38,394 nucleotides of DNA. Source: a virus. Position 1 is the first letter of the stretch. Each line of letters starts with the position of its first letter. The position numbers and the translations under genes are program-made. Shown here piece by piece: positions 6,015 through 22,659 of this stretch. The notes below the pieces were generated by a model. It made no database searches and was not told the origin of the DNA. It saw only the letters and a list, made by a program, of their open reading frames with translations. The stretch covers positions 1 through 38,394 of the IMG/VR virus record IMGVR_UViG_3300046000_006439. One strand, given 5' to 3'.

Positions 6015-6380
6015 TTATTCCTCCGTGATGGTGATTTCAATTCGTGGGTTGCTACTGTCTTTTTCAAAGGTCGGACGTTCCGGCCAGAGTCCTTTATCGT
6101 TCGCGATGATTCCAGCATCAGCGATCCCATCACAGACGCTCTTGAGGCTAGCCATAAAGTTATCAGCATCTCGCGAGCGGTTATGTTTAAAGAACGCATT
6201 CACCTCCATCTTGGCCTTTACCCATCCAGGCGGACGGCGAAGGTTTAGCGCCTCAACTGCTGCGAGATGCGCTGTCTTGCGCGACGCCCTGACTAGCTTG
6301 GCTTTCTCGGCCCAATGCACGCGAGCGTTCGGGCTGAGTTTGCGGACGGGAATTGGCAGGATGATTGTGATTGATGTCAT
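6015..6380 (-). CDS. RusA-like Holliday junction resolvase
   Basis: At 121 aa this matches the size and layout of RusA endonucleases: an N-terminal strand region (ITIILPIPVRKLSPNAR), an internal helix, and the signature DADNFMASLKSVCDGIADAG with the acidic residues that bind Mg2+, followed by NDKG. RusA dimers resolve Holliday junctions, which helps phage recombination and packaging. The ATG overlaps the stop of the helicase-methyltransferase gene (ATGA), so I use 6380 as start. The gene fits beside RecT, the RecB-like nuclease and SSB. Confidence 0.85.
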   Translation of the reverse strand: MTSITIILPIPVRKLSPNARVHWAEKAKLVRASRKTAHLAAVEALNLRRPPGWVKAKMEVNAFFKHNRSRDADNFMASLKSVCDGIADAGIIANDKGLWPERPTFEKDSSNPRIEITITEE

Positions 6381-8581
6381 GCAAATAGCGCCAGATCGGT
6401 TTGCGACTTCGCGTTTTTCAAATTCTCGCACGACTGCTTGAAGTAGCTCTCCTTGAGTTCAGCGCCGATAAATTGACGATCTAATTCCAGCGCGCTAACT
6501 CCCTCGCTGCCGATGCCGGTAAAGGGTGAAAACACCACATCGCCTTCATTACTCCAAAGCGTAATTGCCCGCTCGATAACGTCCAGTTGCAATGGGCAAA
6601 TGTGCCGCTCGTCCTTGTGATCCCTTGCGCCGTTGCGATTCAAGACGCGGCCTTGATCGACGGTCATCCAGACAGGCGATGCCACTTCCTGCCACCAGTC
6701 CACCGGATAGCGCGCAGGGTCTTTCGTGACTGGCTTTGGATTCTCGCCAGGAGCGCGAAACACTAGTAGGTAATCAGCGCAACCAACGCGGGAATCGCAG
6801 GAGTCGGCCTTTAGCGTCTTGTAGAGCAGCCCGTGCGCCTTCGTGCGTTGCATCTCGGTCACGGGTGATTTCCAAATGCAAATGCGCGAATGAAAAAGGA
6901 ACCCGTGCCGCCAGAATGCGCGGATGATTTCGCCGCTAAAGTCCTGAAACTGGATCGCGCCGTGCTTCCATTTCGTCGCCAGCAAATCAACGCAATGGAC
7001 CGCAACCTCACGCCCAGGAACCATGATGCGAGCAAGCTCCGCAATCAGTAGTTCAAAATGCGCCGTGAACTCGTTCATGTCCGCGCAGTTGCCCATGTCT
7101 TGCAGGTCGTCGGAGTAGGTGAACAAGTCCGCGAACGGTGGAGAGAAAACGCTGAAATCAATCGAGTGGTCTGGAATGGATCGCGCAACGCGGACGCAAT
7201 CGCCGTGATGAACTGTCCAGTTTTTCCCTGTCGCTGTGGTGATGTCTTCCTTCATGTGTGTGAGTTTCTGCGTGTTCTCTTTGAATGCCTCTGATGCCAT
7301 TTTCATTTGCTCCTGCATGTTGCGGTGTTGTTCGATCTTGCGTTTGATGGTTTGAAGGATTGCGCCCTCCGTCGCTGCTTGAACTACCAGCGCATTGACT
7401 GGCTTTGTCTGTCCAAAGCGGTATGATCGGCGGAGCGCTTGGTAGAAGTCCTCAAATGAGTAGTTGAGTCCGACGAATGCCACGTTGCTGCAATGCTGCC
7501 AATTCATGCCATAACCAAAGATGCCACTCTTTGAAATCAGCACCCGAACCGCGCCAGAAACGAAATCATCTGCCGCCTTCTCTTTCTTCTTGGCGCTATC
7601 ACTGCCGCGAATCTCTACCGCGTCGGGAATGGCTTTCGCGAGTTGATCCGCTTCATCATTCGTGTTGCACCAGACTACCCACGACTCGGTTGATTCGTTC
7701 ACTTCCGTTGCAACGGCTGCAACACGCGCAGGTGAAGTAAGACGCATCTCCTTGTGCATCGTGGTTGCCGATAGCGTGGCGTGGCGGAATAGCTGGTCAT
7801 CACTGCCAGTTGTTTCGTCCACTTCCACAATCTGCGTGCGGAGATTCAGCGGCGGCAGGATATAGCCAGCGTCATCGAATCCGATGTCTGATGGCTTACC
7901 GATGCACGCGGCCCAACTCGCCACCCATTCCCAGAATTGCTTCTCAGCGTGCTTTTTCAAGCGCCAATCGCCAGTGTTGAACGTGTCATTGATGAAGAAC
8001 GTTGCGAGCATCTGAGCGGGTGAGCAGACTCCGAGGAAGTCGGCATGTTGCCCGAACTCGGTGTAATCGTTAGGCGATGGCGTAGCCGTGCAGCATAGGC
8101 GGTATGGCGTATCCTTGAAACGATCCGTGAGAGCGCGCCGGGTCTTGCCTGTGAAGTTTTTCAGAATGCTGGATTCATCCAGAACTACGCCAGCAACCTC
8201 GACATCTGCGAAGTGTTCCAGCTTATCGTAATTCGTGATGTAGATGCCAGCGTTGACCATCTCCGCGCCAGACTCCACGACCTGCGCCGCGAGTCCGAAC
8301 TTGCTAGACTCTTGCGCCGTCTGATGCGCTACCGCCAGCGGCGTGAGAATCAGCACCTTGCCCGATGTCTGATTGACCACTTGATGCGCCCATTCAAGCT
8401 GCTGCAAAGTCTTGCCAAGTCCGCAGTCTTCAAAGAGTGCAGCCTTGCCAGTTCTCACAGCCCATTTGATAACGTGCGACTGCCAGTCGAAGGCAGGAAC
8501 GGTGATGTCATGCGGCTCAAAGCCGGATGTTTTGCTTGATCGGTTTTTCCCGATGATGAATTCGTTGTATGTGTCTTGCAT
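6377..8581 (-). CDS. SNF2-type helicase fused to DNA methyltransferase, 734 aa
   Basis: Residues about 25-420 form a superfamily 2 motor of the SNF2 kind: motif I GLGKT (residues 54-58), an LDESS motif II (134-138), TATP motif III (165-168), and motif VI ALRRSYRFGQ (382-391). A helical linker (about 410-445) leads to an amino-methyltransferase with the catalytic SPPF motif at 480-483 and the SAM-binding motif FSPFTGIGSEGVSAL near 684-698. The order SPPF before the SAM motif is the beta class, which makes N4-methylcytosine or N6-methyladenine. No nuclease domain is visible, so this is probably a self-modifying, anti-restriction or replication-linked enzyme rather than a full restriction system. 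Confidence 0.88.
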   Translation of the reverse strand: MQDTYNEFIIGKNRSSKTSGFEPHDITVPAFDWQSHVIKWAVRTGKAALFEDCGLGKTLQQLEWAHQVVNQTSGKVLILTPLAVAHQTAQESSKFGLAAQVVESGAEMVNAGIYITNYDKLEHFADVEVAGVVLDESSILKNFTGKTRRALTDRFKDTPYRLCCTATPSPNDYTEFGQHADFLGVCSPAQMLATFFINDTFNTGDWRLKKHAEKQFWEWVASWAACIGKPSDIGFDDAGYILPPLNLRTQIVEVDETTGSDDQLFRHATLSATTMHKEMRLTSPARVAAVATEVNESTESWVVWCNTNDEADQLAKAIPDAVEIRGSDSAKKKEKAADDFVSGAVRVLISKSGIFGYGMNWQHCSNVAFVGLNYSFEDFYQALRRSYRFGQTKPVNALVVQAATEGAILQTIKRKIEQHRNMQEQMKMASEAFKENTQKLTHMKEDITTATGKNWTVHHGDCVRVARSIPDHSIDFSVFSPPFADLFTYSDDLQDMGNCADMNEFTAHFELLIAELARIMVPGREVAVHCVDLLATKWKHGAIQFQDFSGEIIRAFWRHGFLFHSRICIWKSPVTEMQRTKAHGLLYKTLKADSCDSRVGCADYLLVFRAPGENPKPVTKDPARYPVDWWQEVASPVWMTVDQGRVLNRNGARDHKDERHICPLQLDVIERAITLWSNEGDVVFSPFTGIGSEGVSALELDRQFIGAELKESYFKQSCENLKNAKSQTDLALFA

Positions 8582-8596: not shown

Positions 8597-9766
8597 TTAT
8601 CCCAGCGTCAATTTTGTTACTTCCGTCGATCCTTTGCTCGTTTCTGTTACGTCCCGCAGCACTTCCGCCGCGATTGCTTCTAGCGCCTTCCCCTTCTCTC
8701 CTGTTGCCGTTTTGAGCAGTCCATTCAGCGCTCCCAATGCAATGCTGCATTCAGCGGTGAAAGCCTCCGCAGTGACGCCTTGCGCTGCCGCACGGCTAAA
8801 CACCGTGGCAACGTCCGAGATTGAGCGCTTGCCCTTCTTTTCGCGGATGCCGTAGCCTGCAATTTCGCCCGCCTCGACTCGCGCCTTGAAGCTGGCGCCG
8901 ATGGTGTGTGCGTAGCGTTTGACCATCGCCAGCCCCTTGAATAGCGCTGCGTGTCGCTCTGGCGTTAGAGCGCAAGCACGCGCCCACATTGCCGCCATTT
9001 GCGTCTCGTCATCCATGCCCGCGATGGTGGCAGGGTCGATAACTTCGATGGCTTGCAACTGCGCGTCTCGGAAGGTTTCGCAGACTGAGTTGGCCTTGCA
9101 ATAGTTGCAATGCTTGCCCGCCTTTCGGTCGTCTGGCGTTGCAGCGGTTGCAGCGTCGAGCGTTTGAAAAAGCCAGTCGCCGCAGATCGCCAACTCGGCC
9201 TCGCCATAATCCGCCACCGTTGGCCTGCCCTTCCACGGCTGGACGAGAGCAACGCGGACAGATTGCAGGTTGTGACGGCGTGCAACCATGACGGCGAGGC
9301 TTGCCAACTGCGGATTGTCGAGGGCGCGCGTATGATCGCCATGCAGCGCCTTGAAGTCCACCAGCAGGCCACGATTGCCCTGGATATAAAGGCGGTCGAA
9401 TTGCCCTGTGAACACAAAATCAGCGCGGGAATCTTGGCGAACGATTGCCACGTTGCCGAGCGTGGTCATGCCGTAACGCAATTCACGATAGCCCTCGTAT
9501 GTCTCAGCAGGCATGAGCCATTCATCGCGCAGTCTGTCGCATTGATCGCTGCACATCTCAGCGGTCTGGACGATGTTATAAGGCGATTTATCGTCATCTT
9601 CCTCGCCGGCGAGGATCGCGTGAACCTCGTTGCCAAGGTCTGCGTCTTTAGTATCTTCCTCGCGTTTAGGCGCGGCTCGCTCCATTTGCACCGATGCCGG
9701 GCAGTGGTGGATTCGCTCGATGCGGCTGGCGGATGGGATGAGCGGGAATGGATTTGTGTAGCTCAT
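8597..9766 (-). CDS. PD-(D/E)XK nuclease, RecB-like (DUF2800 type)
   Basis: The 389-aa protein starts with SASRIERIHHCPASVQMER, the typical Cys-containing entry of RecB-like phage nucleases, has the catalytic core pieces GQFDRLYI and LLVDFKAL (Asp and D-x-K), and a C-x2-C-x6-C cluster (CNYCKANSVC, near residue 218) that with the N-terminal Cys would hold an iron-sulfur cluster. Such nucleases resect DNA ends for the annealing protein. The stop/start overlap with RecT (base 9766) supports a two-component exonuclease-annealase recombination module. Confidence 0.88.
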   Translation of the reverse strand: MSYTNPFPLIPSASRIERIHHCPASVQMERAAPKREEDTKDADLGNEVHAILAGEEDDDKSPYNIVQTAEMCSDQCDRLRDEWLMPAETYEGYRELRYGMTTLGNVAIVRQDSRADFVFTGQFDRLYIQGNRGLLVDFKALHGDHTRALDNPQLASLAVMVARRHNLQSVRVALVQPWKGRPTVADYGEAELAICGDWLFQTLDAATAATPDDRKAGKHCNYCKANSVCETFRDAQLQAIEVIDPATIAGMDDETQMAAMWARACALTPERHAALFKGLAMVKRYAHTIGASFKARVEAGEIAGYGIREKKGKRSISDVATVFSRAAAQGVTAEAFTAECSIALGALNGLLKTATGEKGKALEAIAAEVLRDVTETSKGSTEVTKLTLG

Positions 9767-10629
9767 TACTTCACGCCTCCCTTCATCGCTTCCAGTTGGC
9801 TCCGCATCCCGATCACCTGCCGCAACTCATCGTCAGTTGCGTCATCAGGATTGTTTCGCACATCGTCGAGCACGCCGTTATCAAGGAGCGCTTGATTGAT
9901 CTGCGTCCACTCCGTCTTGGACGACTTGAGCCACGCTTTAACCGCGTCCAATGCGGTTGTGGAGTCATCAGGAATTAGGGATGGTGCCTCGTTGAAAACC
10001 TCCGCCGACTGCCCAACAATCGGCGTAGGTGAGGCACCATTCTTAGCGGTGGTCCGCTGAGATTTGAAAAGTGATGATTCGGATGCGGATGGCGTGACGT
10101 CGCGCATTGGTGGCGTGTCGCGTGCCTCATCTTCGTCGGTGATGCCGCTGAATCCGAACGCAACGCGAGCGCCCTGGATGGTGGCCTTGTGGCGTAGCAT
10201 TCGATGCTTCATCTTCCACGGGTCAGTGTTGCGCTGGCATTCGTCCAGATACTCCGTGACGCGGGTTGGATGCGTGCGGTCTTTGCGATGAATGATCGAC
10301 GTGCAAGCGATGAGCTTCTCGCCTTCGTGAATCCATTCGTAATCAATGCCGTCGAACTGCGGATGGTTGTTCATAATGTTCAGCCAGCCGTCGATTGAAA
10401 CAACCGGAACGATGCCGCCGCCCTTGGCAGGGAATGCGTAAATTTCCTTGGTGAGCGGGTTCAGGCCGTATTCGTTCGACACGATGACAAGCGCCATCAT
10501 CTCGTCATTTGTTGCGCCCTTGAACGCGGTATTCTTGAGCGTTTCGAGCAGTTTGGCTGGATCGACAGAGAAGCGCGAGGCCATGACGGCGAGCGCGGAT
10601 GCTTTTGGTGTGGTGATTTCGTTTGTCAT
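9766..10629 (-). CDS. recT: RecT/Bet-family annealing recombinase
   Basis: The 287-aa protein has the Bet/RecT core at residues about 15-180: helices leading into NEYGLNPLTKEIYAFPAKGG, then VPVVSIDGWLNIMNNHPQFDG and the WKMKHRMLRHKATIQGARVA block. These proteins anneal complementary single strands during phage recombination. The C-terminal third (about 190-287) is less conserved, with a helical tail. It is paired with a RecB-like nuclease downstream and SSB further along, a standard phage recombination set. The leader has CTAACC 12 bases upstream and no clear Shine-Dalgarno. Confidence 0.92.
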   Translation of the reverse strand: MTNEITTPKASALAVMASRFSVDPAKLLETLKNTAFKGATNDEMMALVIVSNEYGLNPLTKEIYAFPAKGGGIVPVVSIDGWLNIMNNHPQFDGIDYEWIHEGEKLIACTSIIHRKDRTHPTRVTEYLDECQRNTDPWKMKHRMLRHKATIQGARVAFGFSGITDEDEARDTPPMRDVTPSASESSLFKSQRTTAKNGASPTPIVGQSAEVFNEAPSLIPDDSTTALDAVKAWLKSSKTEWTQINQALLDNGVLDDVRNNPDDATDDELRQVIGMRSQLEAMKGGVK

Positions 10630-15878: not shown

Positions 15879-16496
15879 TTAGAATACATCAGCGCCAGCG
15901 GATTTACGGCGGCGCATTTCTGCGAGCATCTCGCTTTCTTTCATGCCTTTTGCCCAAACTGGGCGGAGTTGGAAATGAGGTTGATCTTGGATGCTCGACC
16001 AGTCGCCGCCCCACTCAAAGCCAAGTGCTTTACCGAGTTGTCCAACGGTTTTATAGGCGGGTGATTCGTCGATATATTTACCATCAGTCGAGAACACGCC
16101 GACATCAAAAGCAACGCCGAAATTGTGGTTGGAGTAGCCTCCGCGAGCATTGGTCACGACTTTGCCGGATGACGAGCGTCCTTGAGCATAAAGCGAGTTT
16201 TGCTCGTCGTATGTCCGCAAGCCGGATATGACTTTGATCTTGATGCCTTTGGTGGATGCGGATTGCACAAGTTGACGGGCTTTATCGCGGAGTCGTGGAT
16301 GCAATGTTGAGATCACGCGTTCGCTGCGATCGTCCACCAGTCCGGCTTCTGGCGTTGGGTCAGGCTTTGGTTGTGGGATCGGTTGCTTTGGCGGCAACGC
16401 CTTATCCAGCGCGGCGAGCGTTACGTTGCCAGGCTCTCCGTCAGGCAGCACGCCAAGACGGGTCTGGATAAGGATTGTGAATGCTTTCGGTGTCAT
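15879..16496 (-). CDS. Endolysin, M15 peptidase (VanY/L,D-peptidase type)
   Basis: The 205-aa protein has an N-terminal segment resembling a short peptidoglycan-binding unit (residues 1-33), a Pro-rich linker (PPKQPIPQPKPDPTPE, 35-50) and an M15 zinc peptidase. Zinc ligands are H124 and D131 in SNHNFGVAFD and H174 in DQPHFQL, with the SGLRTYDEQ motif preceding. M15 endolysins cut peptide cross-links in peptidoglycan. The start overlaps the previous stop by ATGA (16493-16496). No signal peptide is present, so release should depend on a holin. Confidence 0.9.
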   Translation of the reverse strand: MTPKAFTILIQTRLGVLPDGEPGNVTLAALDKALPPKQPIPQPKPDPTPEAGLVDDRSERVISTLHPRLRDKARQLVQSASTKGIKIKVISGLRTYDEQNSLYAQGRSSSGKVVTNARGGYSNHNFGVAFDVGVFSTDGKYIDESPAYKTVGQLGKALGFEWGGDWSSIQDQPHFQLRPVWAKGMKESEMLAEMRRRKSAGADVF

Positions 16497-17143
16497 GGTC
16501 TGTCGTCGTCTAACTTGTTGTGGTATTGCGCGTCGAGCAGGATATTCACACATGCGCCGATGTGGGCGAGATGCGATTGCCCGCTTTCCTCGTCGTTGTC
16601 TTGGCGCTCATGCCATGCGGCAAGATGTCGCTGAATGGCTGAGATGTAGGTGGACGCGCAGACTTTGGTTTTGCGCCAGTTCCACGGCCCGTATTTGTTC
16701 GCGCCGAGTCCATGAACCCATGCGATAGCCAGCAACGCACGCGGTGGAAGTAGCCACATCGGAGACTTGGTCTTGCCAATCGCGCCTTTTGGATCTGTGC
16801 CGATGAGCGCCGGCGTCGACGCTTCCACGACCTCGAAATGAATCGGGATGCCGCGCCATTTCGCAAGCGCAACCTCGGCACTTGCGCCCTTGCTTTTCTC
16901 CCATCCCGCGAGCGCATAGAGCGCATCGGCGCGCATCACTGCGGCAATGTCTCGATCCATTGCGTCGCGCAGAAACTCAATCGTCACTTCGGACTTGTCA
17001 GGATCGAAACCAAGCTCGCGATCCATGTCGGCGGGACTAATGACTTCCCAATCGCGCTCAAGATCGTTTCGCGCCTGATCGAATGCGTCGAAATTGTAGC
17101 GAGGATAACCCGTCATTGGACCCGCGATGTAGATGGAGGGCAT
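16493..17143 (-). CDS. DUF4406 + MazG-like (DUF5664) nucleotide-metabolism fusion
   Basis: Residues 1 to about 105 begin MPSIYIAGPMTGYPRYNFDA, the signature of DUF4406, related to nucleoside 2-deoxyribosyltransferases. Residues about 115-216 match the DUF5664 family, described as dATP/dGTP diphosphohydrolase-like, with KYGPWNWR, the helix IQRHLAAWHERQDNDEESGQ and HLAHIGACVNILL, whose Glu/Asp residues would bind metal. The fusion presumably adjusts the nucleotide pool during infection. There is no PurZ or Z-specific polymerase gene in the window, so a 2-aminoadenine genome is not supported. Confidence 0.8.
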   Translation of the reverse strand: MPSIYIAGPMTGYPRYNFDAFDQARNDLERDWEVISPADMDRELGFDPDKSEVTIEFLRDAMDRDIAAVMRADALYALAGWEKSKGASAEVALAKWRGIPIHFEVVEASTPALIGTDPKGAIGKTKSPMWLLPPRALLAIAWVHGLGANKYGPWNWRKTKVCASTYISAIQRHLAAWHERQDNDEESGQSHLAHIGACVNILLDAQYHNKLDDDRP

Positions 17144-19422: not shown

Positions 19423-20150
19423 GAGTCGGGATGGGCTGCGGTTGGGATGGTATTAGCGCGGGCAACGCCTTTAGTGATGCGGAGATCGTCGATATAACCT
19501 TTACCGAATGCACCACTGACGGATGCATAATTCATTCTTAGTTCTTGATTGGCGCCAATGGTTACCGAAGAACCGTAGGTGCCTTGGGATGTGCCGTTGA
19601 TGAACAGTTCACAAGTGCTGCCGCTGCGTCGAGCCATGATAAATTGCCATGCGTCATTTTTCCCCGACCATGAAGCGATCACCATATTCACGCCACCGTT
19701 GCCAAAGTATAAAGAGCCACTGATTAGGGTCACATAAAAAGTATTTCCTTGCAGCGCAACACCGCATCCGTCGGGGTCTGTTGAGTCGCTTTTCAGCCAA
19801 AACTCGACAGTGAAATCTGTGCCTGTGCCGAATGAGAAATCAGCGGAGGAGGCGCATGATCCGTAATCATCTGTGCCGTCGGTCAGAAGCGATGCCGTGC
19901 CGAACTTGGGCGTCGTGGTGCTGAGTGCCGCGCCGCTGTTCAGAGTGATCGCGCGGGCGTAACTCGATGAGTCTGTTGTCGTCGTGGCTCCATTTGTGCC
20001 ATCGAAATGGGCGAGTAGAACAACGCTGGCAAAATCGGGATCACTGCCGCCACCCGCGACGACAAATAAATATGGGTTGATGATGAACCCGAACGCGGGA
20101 CAAGCCGCAGCAAGCCATACGATTGCGATGATATGAGAAAGTGTTTTCAT
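19419..20150 (-). CDS. LamG/concanavalin-like surface protein with signal peptide
   Basis: Residues 1-21 form a Sec signal peptide (MKTLSHIIAIVWLAAACPAF, cleavage near AFG|F). Residues about 40-243 are a LamG-3 type jelly-roll: VVLLAHFDGTNG, FTVEFWLKS, WQFIMARRSGSTCELFINGT and FGKGYIDDLRITKGVAR are characteristic. Such domains bind glycans and are frequent in phage fibres and receptor-binding proteins. An exported version in a virion operon is unusual: the protein may be attached to the host surface, or to virions after export. Confidence 0.85.
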   Translation of the reverse strand: MKTLSHIIAIVWLAAACPAFGFIINPYLFVVAGGGSDPDFASVVLLAHFDGTNGATTTTDSSSYARAITLNSGAALSTTTPKFGTASLLTDGTDDYGSCASSADFSFGTGTDFTVEFWLKSDSTDPDGCGVALQGNTFYVTLISGSLYFGNGGVNMVIASWSGKNDAWQFIMARRSGSTCELFINGTSQGTYGSSVTIGANQELRMNYASVSGAFGKGYIDDLRITKGVARANTIPTAAHPDS

Positions 20151-21961
20151 CGTGTGCCAATGATCCAGACCTTGACGCCTTCTCCGGTGTTGTCGGTAGT
20201 GGTGCCGACTTGATCAATGAATAGCTCGATCAGCGCGTCGTCTGCGAGTGCAGTGTCGGTCAGTGTGTGCGCTGTTGCAGCGGTGGTGCTGGTTGTTTCG
20301 CTCGCGTCCACGCTGAGTTTGTTGGTCGTCATCACGGTGGTGCCAGATTCGTGCAGATCCACAATGACGATTGCTCCCGTTGAGGCTTTGGTCAGACTGC
20401 ATCGCAGGCTGGTGATCGTCATTGCAAAGGGCATCCTGAAGGTCACCTTCGGAGTCGTGCTGCTGGCGGTGTTGTCGCTGGTTTCATCCGAGAGGGCAAT
20501 GCCGATCTCGACTTTGGTTGCGCTAACCAAACGTGTGTCACTTCCCTGCACGGCGACACTGGCAGCAGTCTCACCATCAGTGGCAAGCTCGACGCTGCCG
20601 CGTGCAGAGGTCGTTGCGGCAGCGACGAGTGTTCCCGTGAGTGATCCATCGGCGAGGTCGGTGAGGTCGGCATCGAGTGTTTGATATGTGCTCGATGCCG
20701 TAGCCGAGAGCAGATAATCCGTGATCGTTGCAGACTGCGTTGCCAGCGTGCCAAGTCCTAGCGTGGTGCGCTGAGCGGCGGCGTCAGCGTCATCGAGCAA
20801 AGCGCGGCCAGCCGTGGTGGTGGTCAGGGCAGCGATGCTGGTAAGGTCACTGTCGAGCGGCTGGTAGGTGCTCGATGCGGTAGCGCTCGTCAGATACGCC
20901 GCAAGACTCTGGTCGCCCGTGTTGGTGCCGCTGAGATTCGCAACCGCACCGTTGGCAAGCATTGCGTTGCTGATTGCGCCATTGGCTATTGCAGTGGCGT
21001 TGCCAGTCGATGTTACGGGTCCGGTGAGGTTTGCATTTGTCGTCACCGTTGCAGCATTGCCGCTGGTGTTTTGGTTGAGCGTTGGAAAGTCTGTCAATCC
21101 TGCCGCGCTGCCCGTGGTTGTTAAAATGACGCCAGTTCCAGACTCGTCAGACAAGACGCCGATGAGTTGCGCCGAGGTAGTCGCTGCAAACTGCGCGAGC
21201 GTGCCACTGGTGAGCGCGTCGCCACCGCCGCTGATGGTCTGCCAGGTGTTGTCACCACGCAAGTATTTGGTGGTAATGGAGGATCCACTGCCGAGTCGTG
21301 CTGCGGCGACGGTGCCAGATGAAATATTGTCGGCGTTGAGGCTGGTGAGACTTGCACCGCTGCCAGCCGTGGTGAGGATGGTGCCCGCGACGCTGCCGCC
21401 CGCCAGATTAGCGGTGCCCATAGTTAGACTGCCTCCCGCTGTGGTGGAGATGCTGCCTGCGTTTTGCCCCGGTGTGCCATACATGTTCAGACTGCCGCCG
21501 TTGCCGCCATGTTGAGCGTCAGCATCAGCACCTTGCAGCAACAAAGACCCACCCACGCCGCCGTGCCAAGGTGAGGCACTGGCACCGCCAAAGAAACGAA
21601 GCGAGCCGTCACTGTATCGAGTGACGCCCGCCGACTGTCCGACAACATCGCCATCCGTGCCGATTTGTCCGGTGAAGGTTGGAGATGCTTTAGGTGCCTT
21701 CAAATCAAGCGCAGATTGCAAATCTGTCTGCGCGCTCAACGTGCCGCTAATGCTGCCCCATGCCGCCGATGCGGTGAAGCCTGTGATTGTTGCGCCAGTC
21801 GCGTTGATCGTTGCACCGCTCGCGATGGTTAGAGTCTTGCCGCTGCCGATGGTTAGGCTTTCCGTGATCGTGCTGCCGTTGATGTTCTTGAGAACGGCTT
21901 TAGTCTGCGCGGTGGCGATGGTTGCCGCGAAGATGGCGGCGAGAATGATGATGTGCTTCAT
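20147..21961 (-). CDS. Large fibre-like protein with signal peptide, 604 aa
   Basis: The N-terminus (MKHIIILAAIFAATIATAQT) is a typical Sec signal peptide with a cleavage site near ATA|QT. The rest is Ala/Thr/Ser/Gly-rich, repetitive and strand-forming, with blocks such as LTIGSGKTLTIASGATINAT and repeated motifs of the kind ATASSTYQ(P/T)LD(S/A)DLT, which look like phage tail-fibre shaft repeats. The C-terminal ~110 residues (IGIALSDETSDNTASSTTPK onwards) form a separate, probably globular head that may be receptor-binding. It is the longest gene in the fibre cluster. Confidence 0.8.
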   Translation of the reverse strand: MKHIIILAAIFAATIATAQTKAVLKNINGSTITESLTIGSGKTLTIASGATINATGATITGFTASAAWGSISGTLSAQTDLQSALDLKAPKASPTFTGQIGTDGDVVGQSAGVTRYSDGSLRFFGGASASPWHGGVGGSLLLQGADADAQHGGNGGSLNMYGTPGQNAGSISTTAGGSLTMGTANLAGGSVAGTILTTAGSGASLTSLNADNISSGTVAAARLGSGSSITTKYLRGDNTWQTISGGGDALTSGTLAQFAATTSAQLIGVLSDESGTGVILTTTGSAAGLTDFPTLNQNTSGNAATVTTNANLTGPVTSTGNATAIANGAISNAMLANGAVANLSGTNTGDQSLAAYLTSATASSTYQPLDSDLTSIAALTTTTAGRALLDDADAAAQRTTLGLGTLATQSATITDYLLSATASSTYQTLDADLTDLADGSLTGTLVAAATTSARGSVELATDGETAASVAVQGSDTRLVSATKVEIGIALSDETSDNTASSTTPKVTFRMPFAMTITSLRCSLTKASTGAIVIVDLHESGTTVMTTNKLSVDASETTSTTAATAHTLTDTALADDALIELFIDQVGTTTDNTGEGVKVWIIGTR

Positions 21962-21966
21962 GGTGA

Positions 21967-22659
21967 TTATCGGAGGCGCTTCCAAACTTGCTCGTTCGTG
22001 GTCGTGGCGTAGTCGTCTGGTCGCACAATACCGTTGTCCGCATCCTCTGCTGTTGTGCCTGTGGTTAGAATCCAGTCTTGAATCTCGGATGAGATTTTGA
22101 GGATCACGTAAAGGTTGGATTTTCCACTTGTGGTTATGGCATCGAGGCATGTTGACGTTCCACCAGTGAGCGCGGTGATTAGCGGCTTCCAGACTGGCAC
22201 ATTTTGCTCCAAGTATTCAGCCCCACCGTCGATTACTTCGACGCTCGCAGGCTCTGGCGCGACTGATGGGCGGATGATCTGAGCGCCAACTACAGTGTCC
22301 GAAATGGCAGGAGATGATGCCTCGCCGGATGCCCACCAATGAACCTCGACACTTGCCGCGATTGCTAGCACGGTGGCAGTCGTGAACGCCGTAGTCAGTG
22401 GCGTTGTATTGAGAATTAGAGTGCCGGTATAGTAGCCCGTTGCCGCCCCCGGCGCCGTGAATGACGTGCAAGTTGCCAGCGTCGTTCCCGCCCTTTCGAG
22501 GTAGAGGGCAAGGCCGAATCCAGTCGGTAAAAGCTCATCTGTGCCGTCGCGGTGAAAGTGAATGCGAATCGGTTCGCGACTCCGCCATTTGAGCGCGATT
22601 TCATCCACGCCGTTTGTCGGCACTAGCTGGTTAGTCGCAAGGTCAAAAGTGAAGTCCAC
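21967..22659 (-). CDS. Probable baseplate/fibre attachment protein, 230 aa
   Basis: The protein starts with GTG at 22659, 13 bases after a TTTTGACA word. Its N-terminal half (WRSREPIRIHFHRDGTDELL, LYLERAGTTLATCTSF) has the beta-rich profile of BppU-like N-terminal domains that attach fibres to a baseplate. The middle is Ala/Thr-rich. I cannot name a family, but position directly before the large signal-bearing fibre supports an adaptor role. Confidence 0.5.
   Translation of the reverse strand: MDFTFDLATNQLVPTNGVDEIALKWRSREPIRIHFHRDGTDELLPTGFGLALYLERAGTTLATCTSFTAPGAATGYYTGTLILNTTPLTTAFTTATVLAIAASVEVHWWASGEASSPAISDTVVGAQIIRPSVAPEPASVEVIDGGAEYLEQNVPVWKPLITALTGGTSTCLDAITTSGKSNLYVILKISSEIQDWILTTGTTAEDADNGIVRPDDYATTTNEQVWKRLR

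Follow-up and report, generated by a model that had tools for sequence, protein, structure and literature searches.

The DNA analysed here, referred to throughout as the window, is the complete 38,394 bases of the IMG/VR virus record IMGVR_UViG_3300046000_006439, and it contains portal, head, tail and integrase genes. On its minus strand, an open reading frame (ORF) at 6377-8581 encodes a SNF2-type motor joined to a beta-class amino-methyltransferase. The 734-residue product is called the window protein, and residue numbers below refer to it. The helicase-methyltransferase fusion is real and the ORF is not a chance one, because the same single ORF is present at full length in 77 of 80 related IMG/VR loci; the three exceptions are L018, truncated at a contig end, and L053 and L055, which stop at residue 732 and fail the strict test only. 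The fusion gene, its parts and its nearest neighbours are as follows.

6377..8581, minus strand: SNF2 motor-beta-class methyltransferase fusion ORF, ATG start, 734 residues (PHROG_16 across residues 28-730; Pfam)
7274..8518, minus strand: SNF2-type ATPase motor, about residues 22-436 (Pfam; AlphaFold model and VIA-align against the INO80 core)
8408..8422, minus strand: Walker A GLGKT, residues 54-58 (invariant K57)
8168..8179, minus strand: motif II DESS, residues 135-138 (invariant D135)
8078..8089, minus strand: motif III TATP, residues 165-168 (sequence alignment)
7409..7432, minus strand: motif VI RRSYRFGQ, residues 384-391 (invariant R385, R388 and Q391)
6410..7219, minus strand: beta-class amino-methyltransferase domain, about residues 455-724 (Pfam; separate AlphaFold model, matching TTHA0409 over 227 residues)
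7133..7144, minus strand: methyltransferase motif IV SPPF, residues 480-483 (sequence alignment)
6614..6871, minus strand: segment in the position of a target-recognition domain, residues 571-656, about 85 residues (conservation equal to the core)
6509..6532, minus strand: methyltransferase motif I FSPFTGIG, the S-adenosylmethionine site, residues 684-691 (sequence alignment)
6015..6431, minus strand: RusA-like Holliday junction resolvase, downstream of the fusion gene (Pfam, PHROG)
8597..9766, minus strand: PD-(D/E)XK (DUF2800) exonuclease, RecB-like, upstream of the fusion gene (Pfam, PHROG)
9766..10629, minus strand: RecT/Bet-like single-strand annealing protein (Pfam, PHROG)

The motor and the methyltransferase domain

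The motor matches the Pfam families SNF2-rel_dom (residues 34-185, E 1e-9) and Helicase_C (residues 295-390, E 1.7e-7) above their curated cut-offs. SNF2 proteins are recognised by motifs I, II, III, V and VI and two RecA lobes of SNF2 type, and these are indicated by Pfam, by motif conservation and by the match to INO80. An earlier note, made from the sequence alone, had described a complete motor with GLGKT, DESS, TATP and RRSYRFGQ, and all four motifs are indeed present. The whole-protein AlphaFold model has a mean pLDDT of 83.4 with a 91-sequence alignment. Structure alignment A2 held the window protein and 90 of 320 loci, and A4 held 76 of those 90. Among the best 50 matches listed in the fold searches, from which all matches named here are taken, VIA-align places the motor with the remodellers INO80 (Z 33.0, rmsd 2.7 over 370 residues), ISW1 (Z 31.8) and DDM1 (Z 28.3). 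The window protein shares their motor fold and helicase motifs, but has no recognised histone- or nucleosome-binding parts and carries a methyltransferase joined to the motor. From its fold and motifs, the SNF2-type ATPase is expected to move along double-stranded DNA.

In beta-class enzymes motif IV precedes motif I; the consensus sequences are (S/D/N)(P/I)P(F/Y/W) and FxGxG, and a change from P to I is an allowed variant of motif IV. SPPF comes before FSPFTGIG in the window protein and both are intact, while Pfam N6_N4_Mtase (PF01555) matches residues 474-717 (E 9.7e-14) above the curated cut-off, which agrees with the class that the earlier note had assigned from the same two motifs. SPPF is typical of N4-cytosine methyltransferases, and by this motif rule the product is probably N4-cytosine. 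A model of the methyltransferase alone (pLDDT 85.7) has fold matches to TTHA0409 (2zie/2zif/2zig; Z 26.7), CcrM (6pbd; 24.1), MboIIA (23.5), the bdelloid N4-cytosine enzyme N4CMT (8s9m; 23.0) and M.PvuII (1boo; 22.9). TTHA0409, CcrM, N4CMT and M.PvuII share the whole-domain fold and the beta-class motif order, but unlike the window protein their chains, of 223-350 residues, are too short to hold a SNF2 motor. No third domain was recognised in the AlphaFold models or in the best 50 fold matches.

Degenerate catalytic motifs in relatives, which the earlier note had named as evidence that would count against its reading, were not seen: K57, D135, R385, R388 and Q391 of the motor and S480, P482, F483 and G689 of the methyltransferase are identical in all 93 aligned sequences (L018, L053 and L055 were left out, for their ends). 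Throughout the protein, dN/dS lies mostly between 0 and 0.1 when 28 disjoint close pairs are compared, and between the window and L002 it is 0.051 for the helicase and 0.005 for residues 571-656. Both domains are under purifying selection.

The earlier note had seen neither a nuclease nor an obvious target-recognition domain. The first observation stands, with no nuclease domain found by Pfam, while the second is too strong. In small beta-class enzymes the recognition part sits between motif VIII and motif X, and in the model of the window protein this place is occupied by residues 571-656, with low model confidence at residues 650-654. A missing recognition domain was rejected, since this segment is present and strongly conserved. 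Its identity compared with that of the catalytic core is 0.49 to 0.53 (1,257 pairs), 0.77 to 0.77 (311 pairs) and 0.85 to 0.84 (524 pairs) in the 91-sequence alignment, against 0.29 to 0.65 (731 pairs) and 0.26 to 0.75 (620 pairs) in phage beta-class methylases of the SHOU24 type (75 sequences); the latter is the sole control with pairwise identities, with segment borders placed by eye and six of 80 loci dropped (L348, L351, L352, L370, L371 and L408). Within groups 1A, 1B and 2 of the family, taken separately (81, 80 and 80 sequences; L018, L122 and L257 left out), no pair with a core identity of at least 0.6 has a segment more than 0.3 lower. At a core identity of 0.34 the segment falls to 0.15 (1,252 pairs), which is taken to reflect mostly comparisons of group 1 with group 2. 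Because the segment is as conserved as the core, it is suggested that the specificity is fixed or relaxed within each group.

Spread, pairing and exchange of the two domains

The earlier note had treated the fusion as an oddity, and here it was mistaken. Matches to the full protein occur in 399 of 50,697 phage records, 304 of them at 80% cover or more and none at 60% identity or more. Of 60 rows sampled evenly along the ranking, all those with an identity of about 30% or more span both domains, and below this there are only generic helicases or methylases. The window protein belongs to PHROG_16, named 'DNA helicase' (residues 28-730 on positions 271-918 of the 986 in the profile, E 2.6e-70). 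PHROG_16 and phage genes annotated as 'DNA helicase/methylase' (for example Coco12 gp66, Richie gp78, Pacc40 gp60 and S-CBS3 gp40) have the same domain order, with both domains present from end to end. Record annotations vary between DNA helicase, DNA methylase, DNA helicase/methylase, restriction endonuclease and hypothetical protein. A genome scan gave at least 447 relatives among 593 candidate stretches, and many bacterial phyla as well as one euryarchaeal assembly are represented among the best 80; the 80-locus sets consist of the best full-length matches and are hence biased to complete genes, and the genome-contig loci are mostly from metagenome-assembled genomes. Positions 14-38 kb of the window had no nucleotide relative in a near search of the same phage records.

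The architecture is already in print, and the window protein is a member of a widespread phage family: the relative Pacc40 gp60 is described as a helicase domain followed by a methylase domain (PMC11855218). No functional or biochemical study of the family was found in the open-licence PubMed Central literature; PMC9957025 concerns a different family of phage methylases.

We divided the family into two groups, using labels coined here. Group 1 (the window, S-CBS3 and Flavobacterium FCV phages) has SPPF as motif IV in 73 of 73 rows, while group 2 (Coco12, Richie and FCL-2) has SIPF in 18 of 18 rows, although several group 2 loci are near-identical mycobacteriophages, so that locus counts are not independent. 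The window protein is 44-47% identical to the proteins of S-CBS3, FCV-3, vir525 and D. gobiensis, and 31-32% to that of Coco12. The methyltransferase part is longer in group 2, and proteins of the Coco12 type have about 100 residues more than the window protein. The mycobacteriophage locus L196:6001-9510 and the similar loci L197, L198 and L216 have an in-frame insertion of about 1 kb in the group 2 methyltransferase part, which is probably an intein, judging from sub-threshold Hint and LAGLIDADG matches (in L196 only). Job42 has a related gene that bears the annotation ribonucleoside reductase. On the Escherichia fergusonii plasmid pEF06 (L098:4998-7388), a relative is split into several annotated pieces and is apparently a decaying copy.

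The motor and methyltransferase might instead do independent jobs: a usual phage replication helicase would share its chain or transcript with an ordinary orphan methyltransferase as a matter of convenience. In BFVD, many viral proteins have a match to the SNF2 part only, phages commonly carry a solitary methylase, and split forms of the pair exist. The two genes are adjacent in S-LBS1 (A50/A49) and in Ramsey (gp65/66). They are separated by a C5-cytosine methylase gene on a Rhodoplanes serenus plasmid (L097:6383-7279, flanked by the helicase gene and the N4/N6 methylase gene), by a small ORF plus a gene for an endonuclease in hattifnatt9-1, and in the Alteromonas phage XX1924, where their order is reversed, by a gene for the sliding clamp DnaN (L504:3365-4375). 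Against two independent jobs, this helicase lineage is almost never found without this methyltransferase: the helicase half alone matches 306 of the phage records at E<=1e-20, with 302 covering at least 80% of the half, close to the 304 for the full protein. The methylase half alone matches 139 records, all but one at more than 80% cover, the group 2 methylases being taken as too distant for this limit. The two halves also diverge together (correlation of distances r 0.953 for 91 sequences, 0.949 for group 1 and 0.696 for group 2, each value reached by 0 of 999 permutations) and are exchanged together. Moreover, S-LBS1 and XX1924 have a second annotated helicase, and the SNF2 domain is matched by three of the 126 ORFs in the vicinity of 15 close relatives. 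We therefore regard independent functions as unlikely. From their near-obligatory pairing, co-divergence and joint exchange, the two domains form one unit.

The exchange is seen in the Flavobacterium phages FCOV-F2 and FCOV-F56. These are 99.6% identical over the first 29.6 kb and 96.6% identical as far as some 90 nt into the fusion gene; from there to the stop codon similarity is absent except for a 94-nt stretch (71%), and it returns at 97% from the stop. Their fusion genes belong to different groups, and are 44% and 31.7% identical to the window protein. Among 78 Flavobacterium records whose terminases are 99% or more identical (some genomes being present as two records), 14 carry a group 2 gene. 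We infer that the other 64 carry group 1, since this fits the 71 Flavobacterium records found for the group 1 methylase and the 85 found for the helicase, seven being by subtraction other Flavobacterium phages. Two mycobacteriophages differ at one and the same place, where Ramsey has a split group 1 pair and the L222 phage a fused group 2 gene; a similarity of 88% stops 15 nt into the first ORF and, apart from a single 106-nt stretch at 73%, is regained only where the second ends. Both domains are thus exchanged together, as a cassette, between near-identical phages.

As described in PMC8388691, FCOV-F27, with a group 1 gene, infects genetic group C of the host, and FCOV-S1 and FCL-2, with group 2 genes, infect groups A and G. 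The 30 phages described in PMC5524643 infect group C; the FCV, V and VK records have a group 1 gene, and their tie to that paper rests on the phage names. That the gene group tracks the host genetic group is suggestive only, since other genes differ too.

Neighbouring genes

The gene order on the minus strand of the window is RecT, PD-(D/E)XK (DUF2800), fusion gene and RusA, and a DnaB-like helicase and an O-like initiator are also among the surrounding replication and recombination genes (Pfam/PHROG). The position between RusA and a RecB-like nuclease is as the earlier note had given it. Among the 126 ORFs near 15 close relatives, for which the 25 commonest of 43 Pfam families are listed, there are DnaB_C (6), RecT (5), YqaJ (4), DUF2800 (4) and a second SNF2 (3), together with the modification genes C5 methylase (2), MT-A70 (2), Mom (1) and Dam (1). 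The C5-cytosine methylase is the commonest identifiable neighbour, accounting for 11 of the 132 nearest neighbours, non-redundant and from other loci; the families after it have three each (25 of 53 families listed), among them PAPS_reductase-domain proteins and DUF5131. Across 334 loci, counted as iterated-profile hits and partly redundant, a C5 methylase occurs anywhere in the available flanks in 66 and within 300 nt in 28, RecT in 27 and within 300 nt in three, and DnaN in 16, with eight of its 17 hits within 300 nt. A DnaN gene adjoins the fusion or lies one gene away at L094:3870-4988 and L092:7810-8892.

A conserved partner gene was rejected: clustering at 50% identity leaves the 423 nearest neighbours in 337 clusters. 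RusA and PD-(D/E)XK genes are near only six and eight of the 334 loci (searched with single-sequence seeds, and probably undercounted), and were likewise rejected as partners. The sliding clamp is rejected as a constant partner, being near so few loci, and is a lead only.

Three further observations concern the window and its relatives. At 16493-17143 (minus strand), one ORF combines a part like DUF4406/nucleoside 2-deoxyribosyltransferase (residues 1-106) with a part of the N-terminal type of dATP/dGTP diphosphohydrolases (residues 117-215). In the archaeal virus vir525, a deoxyribosyltransferase gene comes after the fusion gene. At 20147-22150 (minus strand), the structural region holds a 667-residue ORF without any PHROG match.

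The cassette in which the gene lies, together with the fixed specificity, makes a replication-coupled mark the chief rival to protection against restriction. Methylation behind the fork would mark phage strands for phage replication, recombination or packaging, and the SNF2 part would read the state of the DNA as in fungal DNMT5, so that daughter molecules inherit the methylation. The gene does sit among RusA, PD-(D/E)XK, RecT, DnaB-like helicase and O-like initiator genes; its recognition segment stays constant among relatives belonging to several phyla, like that of a constant cyanophage control; DnaN, where found, is often close, and lies between the split genes of XX1924; and DNMT5 demonstrates that a SNF2 motor can gate methylation (PMC7862722, PMC10538959). 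Against this, a core replication factor would not usually have its alleles swapped between near-identical phages, only 16 of the 334 loci have DnaN nearby, and no reader of hemimethylated DNA was recognised. We consider this role rather improbable, if the strongest of the alternatives.

Comparison with known systems and possible function

A motor and a methyltransferase form the core of Type III, Type ISP, DISARM and BREX systems, and the comparison with BREX, DISARM and Type ISP that the earlier note had proposed places the window protein in none of them. Type III systems pair Mod with a Res subunit that holds a ResIII helicase and a PD-(D/E)XK nuclease. Their Mod subunits (EcoP15I, Mbo45V) have a beta-class methyltransferase that works with a superfamily 2 (SF2) motor, and match with Z 20.5 (4zcf) and 19.0 (7dsu). 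The window protein differs in having no Res nuclease, in a motor of SNF2 rather than ResIII type, and in being one chain, much shorter in the compared part than the Mod chains (420-612 residues); Type III was rejected, there being no ResIII or nuclease match in Pfam. Type ISP enzymes hold an N-terminal nuclease, a motor and a gamma-class methyltransferase in one chain, and were rejected on the lack of a nuclease domain and on the order of motifs IV and I, which is beta rather than gamma. DISARM was rejected on the score against the DrmD family (NF038318, 22.9 bits against a cut-off of 950), and BREX because none of its families is among the 10 NCBIfam families listed (E<=0.001) or the 25 listed of 58 matching PADLOC families.

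The protein could still be a stripped restriction-modification or defence enzyme, derived from one of these four systems and still restricting by means of a separate nuclease. DrmD, DpdE and ZorD match weakly, which points this way, but the scores are far below the cut-offs (34.2 of 500 bits for DpdE and 19.4 of 1500 for ZorD). The protein itself has no nuclease domain, no restriction-nuclease family is among the 25 commonest Pfam families in the 126 neighbouring ORFs, and ResIII appears once among the 132 nearest neighbours (25 of 53 families listed). We judge such a derivation highly improbable.

Fungal DNMT5 resembles the window protein in combining a SNF2 ATPase and a DNA methyltransferase in one chain. 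As presented in PMC7862722 and PMC10538959, ATP hydrolysis by its SNF2 part powers the methylation of hemimethylated DNA. The fungal enzyme methylates at C5 and includes a RING finger, in the order methyltransferase-RING-SNF2, whereas the window protein has SNF2 first and an amino-methyltransferase second. Membership of the DNMT5 family was rejected, as the methyltransferase is PF01555 (N6/N4), the RING is unmatched and the order is reversed; the architecture is similar but the family is different. By analogy, the window protein might be a viral prokaryotic counterpart of DNMT5, in which the motor would read the methylation or protein-bound state of DNA and the use of ATP would license methylation, so that in hosts of many phyla the phage genomes would pass on faithfully a mark at a single fixed target. 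DNMT5 is an instructive parallel, but we give this reading little credence.

The earlier note had proposed processive modification of DNA by a translocating methyltransferase during replication, or protection against restriction. The reading best supported by context is the second, protection against restriction, as motor-coupled self-modification of phage DNA, probably as N4-cytosine, to which we assign a probability of roughly 0.55. A SNF2-type ATPase coupled to a beta-class amino-methyltransferase with a conserved active site, as one chain or as a two-gene pair, would be made alongside the replication and recombination genes, and newly copied phage DNA would be methylated, most likely, before host restriction or packaging. 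The target would be fixed, short or loosely defined, and would hardly change within a group. The motor could feed DNA past the active site, bring the methyltransferase to its sites, or clear proteins off the DNA, and the benefit would be protection from host restriction. This function is favoured by the neighbours, which include other DNA-modifying genes, by the patchy presence and exchange of alleles, and by the lack of a nuclease.

Several points weigh against it. The location in a replication and recombination cassette fits a replication role equally, and allele exchange happens to replication genes too. Another modification gene is close by in a minority of loci, the C5 methylase in the 66 given above. 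A conserved, undiversified specificity is unlike a chase of changing host restriction sites, and would need relaxed specificity or a very common target. The cyanophage adenine methylase control (L439 left out) is likewise uniformly conserved, and uniform conservation may mark fixed-specificity orphan enzymes generally rather than being special to this family. The step from SPPF to N4-cytosine is a trend and not a proof, and TTHA0409, the nearest solved structure, is itself labelled a putative methylase. Methylation data for any family member were not found in the open-licence PubMed Central literature.

Hundreds of sequenced phages carry the helicase-methyltransferase pair, under names that range from 'hypothetical protein' to 'restriction endonuclease'. 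As the architecture is already known, the interest lies in the question of coupling and in the natural allele pairs. If the motor gates methylation, the pair would be a compact phage-borne system for the coupling of ATP-driven DNA movement to methylation, a question that in eukaryotes is addressed through DNMT5 and HELLS/DDM1. Should the pair give protection from restriction at a fixed specificity, the target would identify a defence common to many hosts. The exchanged alleles in related mycobacteriophages are natural pairs that make both ideas testable in laboratory strains.

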